Positions 5,465 through 56,774 of a stretch of 64,000 nucleotides of DNA are shown piece by piece; the stretch's first letter is position 1, and each line of letters opens with the position of its first letter. The position numbers were made by a program, and so were the translations under genes. The notes beneath the pieces are model-generated. The model was not told where the DNA came from and did not search any database. It saw only the letters and a list, made by a program, of their open reading frames with translations. The stretch spans positions 31,466-95,465 of the forward strand of contig JAQTXW010000001.1 of NCBI GenBank assembly GCA_028688575.1. Direction: 5' to 3'. This stretch comes from Methylotenera sp. (GTDB lineage Bacteria > Pseudomonadota > Gammaproteobacteria > Burkholderiales > Methylophilaceae).

Positions 5465-5536
5465 TTACTTGTTCATTACGTACATTGTCACTTCAAAGCC
5501 AAAACGCATTTCAGTAGCTGCTGGTGTAGTCCACAT
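5465..5536 (-). CDS. pqqA: PQQ precursor peptide PqqA (23 aa)
   Basis: Manual translation MWTTPAATEMRFGFEVTMYVMNK with the conserved E-x3-Y crosslink pair; AAAAGGAAATGATC-ATG ribosome site; upstream of pqqB. Too short for the ORF track. Confidence 0.96.
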   Translation of the reverse strand: MWTTPAATEMRFGFEVTMYVMNK

Positions 5537-5694
5537 GATCATTTCCTTTTAAGTTGTTTTAAGTTCGCCACAAACAAATCGTTGTAACGTGAGAAGCATT
5601 GTGCGCGCATCCAGGCACTAAGAACACCGCGAACTTACCGAATACTACCTAAGTAAATTCATGATGTGATGTAATAAAACGTGATTAGGGAAAA

Positions 5695-54294: not shown

Positions 54295-54951
54295 TTATTG
54301 CGATTTTAAAAAGCCAAGTTCAATTAACCCTTTTCGCAAAGCCTCCTCTACCTTTTTATACCCTTGTGCATTAGGGTGTATTGCATCTGATTTCAAACTG
54401 TTTTTTGCCAAGACATCAGAGAATATGTCTTCAATCAGTGGCGTGCCTGTTTCTTTAGCTAAAGCGGCATAAAGCTCATGATCGGACAAATTGCCAAAAG
54501 CCGCCCCTATTGGGCTAAATTTAGGAATCGCCAATAGCACGGCTTGAATGTGGTGTGTTTTTGCCTGTTGCAAAATCGCCTTTAAGTTATTTTTAGTTTC
54601 CGCCTCAGATATCTGTCTTAAAAAATCATTACCGCCAAGCTCCACTATTAACAGATCAATTTTGCTTTCATCAGCATGATAGGTTTCCAGCAAGTCTGGT
54701 AAACGCTGCAAGCCATCCGCAGATGTGTTGCCTGGCACACCTGCATTCACCAATTGCCATTGCGTATTGGCAGCAAGCAAGCTGACATAATCTTCACCTT
54801 TTGCAGCGCCTGTGCCATAGCTCAGACTATCACCTAACACCAGTACGTTAGCCCCGCTGTGGAGCGCGGAAAACTCGGACTTTGCGCCACACGCCACTAA
54901 CAGGACAGCCGCACAGAGCAGCCCCAAATGAATCAAGCGTTTGATTAACAT
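54295..54951 (-). CDS. SGNH/GDSL arylesterase-type lipoprotein (TesA-like)
   Basis: LLVAC lipobox, LVLGDSLSYGTGA, GGNDFLR, DAIHPNAQGY. Confidence 0.92.
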   Translation of the reverse strand: MLIKRLIHLGLLCAAVLLVACGAKSEFSALHSGANVLVLGDSLSYGTGAAKGEDYVSLLAANTQWQLVNAGVPGNTSADGLQRLPDLLETYHADESKIDLLIVELGGNDFLRQISEAETKNNLKAILQQAKTHHIQAVLLAIPKFSPIGAAFGNLSDHELYAALAKETGTPLIEDIFSDVLAKNSLKSDAIHPNAQGYKKVEEALRKGLIELGFLKSQ

Positions 54952-54956
54952 TGAGT

Positions 54957-56774
54957 TTATCGCCTTAATTTATAAACCAGCACATGATCACCTGCAGGAA
55001 AGCCAAAAATAGCATTACCCCCTGCAACCACAGCAATATACTGCTCGCCATCCACTTCGTAACTGATCGGTGGTGCATTTACCCCTGCTTCTGCACTCGC
55101 TTGCCACAGCTGCTCACCTGTTTTGCTATGATAGGCATTAAATTTACCCTCACCCTCACCCATGAATACCAAATCGCCCCGCGTAGCAAGCACCCCGCCC
55201 ATGAGCGGCTGCGTTGTTTTGGCCTGCCAGCTTATTTTACCTGTCGTTAAATCAATCGCTGACAACACGCCCCAGCGCGGATCTTGAGTCGGTTCAGAAG
55301 ATGCGTAGCGGATAGGCGCTAAGCCATCTTTTGCCGGTTCTTCTACCAGTGTATATTTAATCGGCGCATGAATGCCTGCCACGTAAGCTGTCTGCTGCAC
55401 TTCATCTAAAGCGCTCGGGCTCCAGTTAGAACCTCCCAAAATCCCAGGATACAACACCGTACCTTCTTTGGTGGCTTTAGCAAAAAGATTCTTTTGTGGC
55501 ACAAACGCTTCAGACTTCATCAGCAGTGCACCTGTCGCCCTGTCATTCACATAATACCAGCCTGTTTTACCCGCCTGCCCGACTGCGGGAATTTTTTTAC
55601 CCTCCTGCACATAGTCAAACAACACTGGCGGACTTGCTAAATCATAACCCCACACATCATGCGGCACCTGCTGGTAATGCCATTTAATCTTGCCTGACTC
55701 TGTATCCAGCGCAACCAGTGAAACGGTATACAGGTTATCTCCAGGCCTGGAGATATCATTCATCTGTGGGGATGGGTTTCCAGTACCAAAAAATAAAGTA
55801 TTTGTTTGTATATCAATGGCTGGTGTGCTCCATGCTGACCCGCCACCATAACGCCAGGCATCCTGATTGTTTTTAAGATTTGCCTTTTCAGACGCGATAT
55901 CACGATTAAGCGAAACGCCATCTGAGGTGGTTTCAGCAAATACGCCCTCCCAGCCTTGGGCTGGAATCGTATCAAATTGCCAGACACGCTGACCATTATT
56001 CACATCGAATGCTGCCAAAAAGCCTGGTCGGCCATAACGACCATCCACCCCAATCACCGCGCCTAAAGGTGCATCCAATCTGGGCGTGTCCACATGCAGT
56101 CCATAACCTACGCCTGTAACGCCCACAATCACCTTGCCACGATAAACAACAGGCGCCATGTTGATGCCAATACCAGTCCCGCCATAGGATTCTTTTTTAC
56201 TTTTGGCATCATGCCGGCTTAATGAACTGGTATCTTCAGTCAGTGCTGTGTCATCTGCAACATCAGTATCCCAAAGTTTTGCGCCTGTTTTAGCATCCAA
56301 TGCAATCAGTCTGGCATCTACTGTACCAAAAAAGACTTTACCTTCACTCACTGCAACCCCTCTGTTTGCCGGGCCGCAGCACATCTTCCAACCTGCCTTG
56401 CGCGTATGCTGGTAGCGCCACAATTCACTGCCCGTTTTTGCATCAAGTGCCACAACGTGGTTGTAAGGTAAAGACACATACATCACGCCTGCCTTGACTA
56501 TAGGCGTAGCCTGAAACGTAGCAGATACGCCACTTTTAAAGTGCCAGGCCATTGTAAGATTTTTAACATTTTTCGCATTGATTTGTGTCAGTGGTGACAT
56601 GCGCTGGTTAGTGTAGTCGCGTCCATAACTTGACCAGTCGCCATTGGCAATTTCCTGCGGATTTGCGGGCAATCCTGAACATGCAGTAATCGTAAGACAC
56701 GTCAATATCAACAACCCTGTCTTTAAAAATCTTGCATTGACCCATCTGGGCATTATTTGCTGCTTACTCATCAT
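54957..56774 (-). CDS. PQQ-dehydrogenase-like beta-propeller lipoprotein
   Basis: LTITAC lipobox; MCCGPANRGVA vicinal Cys; FFGTGNPSPQ; QAGKTGWYYVNDR; repeated W-docking-like motifs. Confidence 0.88.
   Translation of the reverse strand: MMSKQQIMPRWVNARFLKTGLLILTCLTITACSGLPANPQEIANGDWSSYGRDYTNQRMSPLTQINAKNVKNLTMAWHFKSGVSATFQATPIVKAGVMYVSLPYNHVVALDAKTGSELWRYQHTRKAGWKMCCGPANRGVAVSEGKVFFGTVDARLIALDAKTGAKLWDTDVADDTALTEDTSSLSRHDAKSKKESYGGTGIGINMAPVVYRGKVIVGVTGVGYGLHVDTPRLDAPLGAVIGVDGRYGRPGFLAAFDVNNGQRVWQFDTIPAQGWEGVFAETTSDGVSLNRDIASEKANLKNNQDAWRYGGGSAWSTPAIDIQTNTLFFGTGNPSPQMNDISRPGDNLYTVSLVALDTESGKIKWHYQQVPHDVWGYDLASPPVLFDYVQEGKKIPAVGQAGKTGWYYVNDRATGALLMKSEAFVPQKNLFAKATKEGTVLYPGILGGSNWSPSALDEVQQTAYVAGIHAPIKYTLVEEPAKDGLAPIRYASSEPTQDPRWGVLSAIDLTTGKISWQAKTTQPLMGGVLATRGDLVFMGEGEGKFNAYHSKTGEQLWQASAEAGVNAPPISYEVDGEQYIAVVAGGNAIFGFPAGDHVLVYKLRR

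Follow-up and report, generated by a model that had tools for sequence, protein, structure and literature searches.

Does a quinoprotein whose catalytic Asp and Glu metal ligand appear to have been replaced still oxidize alcohols and, if not, what is it kept for? The question is raised by a gene in the 64,000-nucleotide stretch of a Methylotenera sp. genome analysed here (the window; contig JAQTXW010000001.1). The original prediction, based on an alignment by eye, described its product as a lipoprotein homologue of PQQ dehydrogenases that either has a rearranged active site or is a non-catalytic PQQ or propeller protein.

An intact quinoprotein gene

The gene occupies 54957..56774 on the minus strand, reading from 56774 as an intact ORF of 605 amino acids, and the plus strand of this interval contains stop codons. 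All of the segments originally singled out (MCCGPANRG, GVTGVGYG, GTGNP, HDVWGYD and QAGKTGW) are found in this ORF, which we refer to as the WGYD protein. It matches the PQQ dehydrogenase superfamily (Pfam PF01011) with 326 bits against a cut-off of 26.7, and scores below the cut-offs of narrower models, including PQQ methanol/ethanol dehydrogenase (TIGR03075; 425.8 versus 480 bits), membrane-bound glucose dehydrogenase (GDH; TIGR03074; 268 versus 833), BamB (TIGR03300; 103 versus 285) and acido-empty-quinoprotein group A (TIGR04528; 333 versus 650). AlphaFold2 returned a confident propeller (pLDDT 87, pTM 0.88), with quinohemoprotein alcohol dehydrogenase (ADH) and PedH as the nearest PDB folds at a TM-score of about 0.7 (Foldseek). 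The host genome (2.25 Mb, 93 contigs) encodes further quinoproteins: two of XoxF type, one MxaF-like and one more divergent.

The N-terminus carries a lipoprotein signal peptide (residues 1-31) followed by a lipidated Cys32 (LTITA/CSG; 56679..56774, minus strand), and with Ser at +2 the lipoprotein would be expected to go to the outer membrane. The lipobox noted originally is therefore present in this protein, but as a trait of the wider clade it is mainly confined to Methylophilaceae, where most members have it; outside this family most members carry ordinary signal peptides. We thus rejected lipoprotein nature as a defining trait of the clade. The distribution of the lipobox argues that lipidation is lineage-specific, the lipid anchor being a predicted local addition to a family that is periplasmic as a whole.

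The catalytic Asp and the Glu ligand are replaced

In PedH the metal ligands and the catalytic Asp have well-established roles, and a phmmer search of the PDB aligned the WGYD protein to this enzyme (6zcv; PedH residues counted off the printed alignment), pairing PHDGWDFD with PHDVWGYD. The motif that gives the protein its name (residues 375-378; 55641..55652, minus strand) thereby places Gly376, codon 55647-55649, at the catalytic Asp (PedH D323, MxaF D303) and Asp378 at the +2 Asp (PedH D325). MAFFT and HHalign gave the same pairing, so the reading of both positions by eye was right. Where lanthanide enzymes such as XoxF and PedH have a D-x-D motif with both acids, the WGYD protein has G-Y-D, with the second Asp alone. 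As evidence of lanthanide use or of an alternative catalytic role we consider this Asp weak: it is shared by the sister clade described below and by the membrane-bound GDH of Escherichia coli (PMC11996626), and is thus no proof of lanthanide use. The resemblance to that enzyme lies in the D-x-D-type motif with its +2 Asp, whereas the WGYD protein has no membrane domain and has lost the catalytic Asp.

The Glu ligand (MxaF E177, PedH E199) is likewise absent, as the original prediction had it. Where the canonical loop reads GTNGGEYGIRG, the WGYD protein has a 34-residue stretch (residues 218-251, GVTGVGYGLH...GVDGRYGRPG; 56022..56123, minus strand), and this replacement allows two registers. 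Anchored at the N-terminal side (MAFFT; HHalign against canonical sequences) the Glu falls on Gly223, and anchored at the C-terminal side (phmmer; HHalign against the sister clade) it falls on Arg246; neither is acidic. Gly223 is Gly in 80/80 clade members and position 246 is variable, and because only 57% have Arg there we rejected the idea that the positive charge of Arg246 takes the place of the metal. A His in the new loop, His227, is kept in 77/80. Both halves of the stretch, GVTGVGYG and GVDGRYG, resemble the original loop, so a duplication is possible.

The Asn ligand is retained (PedH N281, here Asn333; 55776..55778, minus strand; phmmer and alignment), leaving two of the four PedH protein ligands gone. 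At the position of MxaF Glu55 the protein has Gln88 (56511..56513, minus strand), as do 77/80 members, versus Glu in 9/10 of the sister clade; this change means little alone, since some canonical paralogues also have Gln there. A second clade-specific insertion, unremarked in the original prediction, spans residues ~177-200 (56175..56246, minus strand) and contains E180, conserved in 77/80.

A single conserved clade

A search for orthologues sharing the G-Y-D pattern, as the original prediction had suggested, recovered 80 aligned proteins with W-G-Y-D, whose pairwise identity averages 59% and falls no lower than 36%, so that the substitution is not a local mutation. Gly376, Asp378, Asn333, Arg138, Lys403 and Gly223 are invariant in 80/80, and His372 is invariant as well. 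One further clade member (L138) reads WGMD. The catalytic Asp is kept in 31 canonical paralogues, drawn largely from the same genomes as the WGYD proteins, and in a sister clade of WDLD quinoproteins. A maximum-likelihood tree gave a support of 100 to the WGYD branch, 100 to the WDLD branch and 98 to their joint branch, and dN/dS ratios of 0.03-0.14 over eight pairs indicate purifying selection. The change to Gly376 was fixed once and then held under selection; it is not decay. What might have been the peculiarity of one protein is instead an old, conserved subfamily that is nearly restricted to PQQ producers.

The WDLD proteins (L091 and L099-L107), which occur in the same bacteria, are 42-44% identical to the WGYD proteins and have C-terminal motifs in common with them. 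They differ in keeping the catalytic Asp, a Glu in GGEYG and mostly Glu55, and in having neither insertion. The active site of L155 reads WDFD, a WGYD-matching string occurring elsewhere in that protein, and L185 (G311:C35:53500-56400) is a second, unrelated quinoprotein-like ORF on a long branch that lacks the catalytic Asp (IAHEVWVRDS).

The PQQ pocket is retained

With PQQ contacts assigned from established MxaF and ADH structures, which we take to apply here, the pocket is kept. The vicinal pair Cys132-Cys133 over the PQQ site (56376..56381) is kept in 77/80 members and the stacking Trp315 (MxaF W243; 55830..55832) in 76/80, being missing in four; Lys403 (MxaF R331, a PQQ-contacting Lys/Arg position; 55566..55568) is invariant, and Arg138 and Asn450-Trp451 (the NW of ADHs, MxaF N387 region; 55422..55427) are also present, all on the minus strand. 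The PQQ-contact residues, Asn ligand and Cys pair of TIGR03075-type enzymes are thus all found (C132/133, R138, W315, N333, K403 and N450). Mean conservation over eight PQQ-contact positions was 97%, a value reached by 3 in 20,000 random column sets. Three WGYD proteins (L094, L095 and L096) lack the vicinal Cys pair (IFGPPSNRG) and keep the other motifs.

Distribution follows PQQ synthesis

Within Methylophilaceae, relatives with E <= 1e-60 are present in 127/150 genomes. Across the order the gene is held by 29/300 genomes (32 matches less three of sister type alone), and the phylum sample added 5 more genomes with relatives. The PQQ synthesis gene pqqC is present in 26/29 holders of the order versus 33/271 non-holders (Fisher p 5e-18), an association that ignores phylogeny and kinship and to which other quinoproteins also contribute. 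The three holders without pqqC are assemblies 78-82% complete, and every tested holder at least 90% complete has it. Among PQQ producers of the order, a link with XoxF was not significant (17/26 holders versus 16/33; p 0.29). We therefore rejected a methylotrophy link via XoxF: what the gene follows is PQQ, not methanol oxidation. The gene is also absent from 33/59 PQQ producers of the order, including some close relatives, and so cannot be a general requirement for PQQ handling.

The gene is also kept in ten reduced Methylophilaceae genomes examined, nine of 1.2-1.4 Mb and one of 1.8 Mb, in which PF01011 (E <= 1e-10) matches just two ORFs: the WGYD protein and one other, identified as XoxF in the three where it was checked. 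Two related genomes without the WGYD gene each have a single PF01011 match; in G015, where it was checked, this is XoxF. In the sampled genomes of genus g10 the gene is missing, truncated or split (G030:C1:73970-75274; G071:C17:31081-32809), with PQQ synthesis and XoxF present in those checked (G010 and G030).

Gene neighbourhood gave no functional clue and was rejected as one, since sharing is confined to close relatives. Among the loci compared, conserved neighbours did not extend beyond Methylotenera-type genomes, and neither a cytochrome c nor an accessory gene accompanied the WGYD gene; a CXXCH protein adjoins it at one locus (L118). Directly downstream, 5 bp from its stop codon, lies a GDSL-type lipoprotein gene (54295-54951, minus strand), whose adjacency is conserved only in Methylotenera-type genomes and which appears degraded in L056. 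The window also holds the complete pqqABCDE operon of the host genome (1893-5542, minus strand), ~50 kb from the WGYD gene and including a PqqA-like peptide, MIMWTTPAATEMRFGFEVTMYVMNK, at 5465-5542. A XoxF-like protein encoded beside a WGYD gene, L074 (G172:C21, about 35102 onwards), has WDYG and, at the Glu loop, GGGWG; its Glu ligand is apparently Gly and its catalytic Asp is kept.

Weighing the possible roles

The prosaic explanation, that this is an ordinary PQQ alcohol dehydrogenase whose Asp and Glu were misaligned by eye, could appeal to the ambiguous register of the Glu loop and to acids that the insertions might supply (E180, D229). It is largely refuted, and we give it very little weight: the Asp position is unambiguous by all methods, neither Glu register yields an acid and the protein falls short of the TIGR03075 cut-off. 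Three alignment methods and the fixation of Gly376 across the clade make a shifted alignment improbable. Both options of the original prediction survive, with the exception that near-restriction to PQQ producers argues against a propeller without PQQ. Such a structural propeller, a BamB-like scaffold or binding protein in which the old pocket is merely the core of the fold, would fit the low-scoring matches to BamB-type models and folds, the match below cut-off to the acido-empty-quinoprotein group and the lipobox of most Methylophilaceae members. We regard it as unlikely, given that the PQQ-contact residues are conserved above background and that nearly every genome encoding the protein also has pqqC. 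Quinoprotein homologues without PQQ are already foreshadowed by the name of the TIGR04528 model, which matches all 57 alignment proteins scanned; the WGYD protein scores below its cut-off, and the WGYD clade lives in PQQ producers.

The main rival to the reading we prefer is an active quinoprotein with a rebuilt centre, holding PQQ and a metal through Asn333 and Asp378, using another base (for example, His227 or Asp378) and acting on a substrate unlike simple alcohols. A precedent for the base is soluble GDH, which abstracts the proton with His rather than Asp. The invariance of Gly376, Gly223, Asp378, His372 and Asn333, the retention of His227 in most members and the conserved insertions favour this possibility because a purely degenerate site would drift, and the near-restriction to PQQ producers is consistent with it. 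The divergent L090/L097/L098 lineage, however, has WGYD without His227, no cytochrome or substrate genes were found nearby and half of the PedH protein ligands have been lost. We hold a rebuilt centre to be a real but rather doubtful prospect.

Our preferred reading, held tentatively and at somewhat less than even confidence, is of a PQQ-binding quinoprotein that has lost Asp/Glu-metal catalysis and perhaps retains or hands over PQQ. The WGYD protein probably binds PQQ, and we infer from its residues that ordinary Asp-assisted alcohol oxidation with calcium or a lanthanide would not occur. It belongs to a distinct periplasmic subfamily of single origin in which the propeller and the pocket for PQQ survive (disulfide/Trp sandwich, Arg138, Lys403, Asn333 and Asn450) and the metal and catalytic centre has been replaced: the catalytic Asp has become Gly, the rebuilt loop has no Glu ligand and Glu55 has become Gln. 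More speculatively, its most likely job would be to hold PQQ in the periplasm, as buffering, retention or hand-over to dehydrogenases such as XoxF, and in most Methylophilaceae it would do so tethered to the membrane by lipid. We prefer this reading because the protein is partnerless, linked to PQQ and kept in minimal genomes. Against PQQ holding stand the PQQ producers that lack the gene and the few members without the Cys pair or the stacking Trp; moreover, a Gly that never varies and a new loop that is conserved might just as well be signs of a remade active site.

That bacteria can have, and profit from, a periplasmic protein dedicated to binding PQQ is shown by PqqT of Methylobacterium (PMC12124388). 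The precedent makes a PQQ-holding role plausible, though it is no proof; PqqT is a different protein, and the likeness, confined to the proposed job of keeping PQQ in the periplasm, is a functional analogy in which a retired dehydrogenase scaffold may do PqqT-like work. The closest structural comparison is with the lanthanide-dependent ethanol dehydrogenases PedH and ExaF (PDB 6zcv and 6zcw), with which the WGYD protein shares the PQQ propeller, the equivalents of N281 and D325 and the Cys pair; it differs in Gly376 for D323, the loss of E199 and two insertions, at ~31% identity (Foldseek alignment). Our literature search, partial in coverage, found no paper on this subfamily. Judged against the structures, family models and paralogues compared here, the WGYD clade is a new, fixed subfamily variant in a known superfamily.

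Implications

On balance, we expect the WGYD protein to represent either a new catalytic architecture (for example, with a His base in the rebuilt loop) or a dedicated PQQ-holding protein derived from a dehydrogenase and kept in minimal methylotroph genomes. Whether a quinoprotein depends on calcium or on a lanthanide is predicted from its sequence by way of the catalytic Asp and the ligands to the metal, and a conserved subfamily that has lost both the first Asp and the Glu would wrongly be annotated as alcohol dehydrogenases. Because it persists alongside XoxF in very small genomes of methylotrophs, the WGYD protein is a candidate for a component still missing from the picture of PQQ handling in the periplasm, or for new PQQ chemistry.
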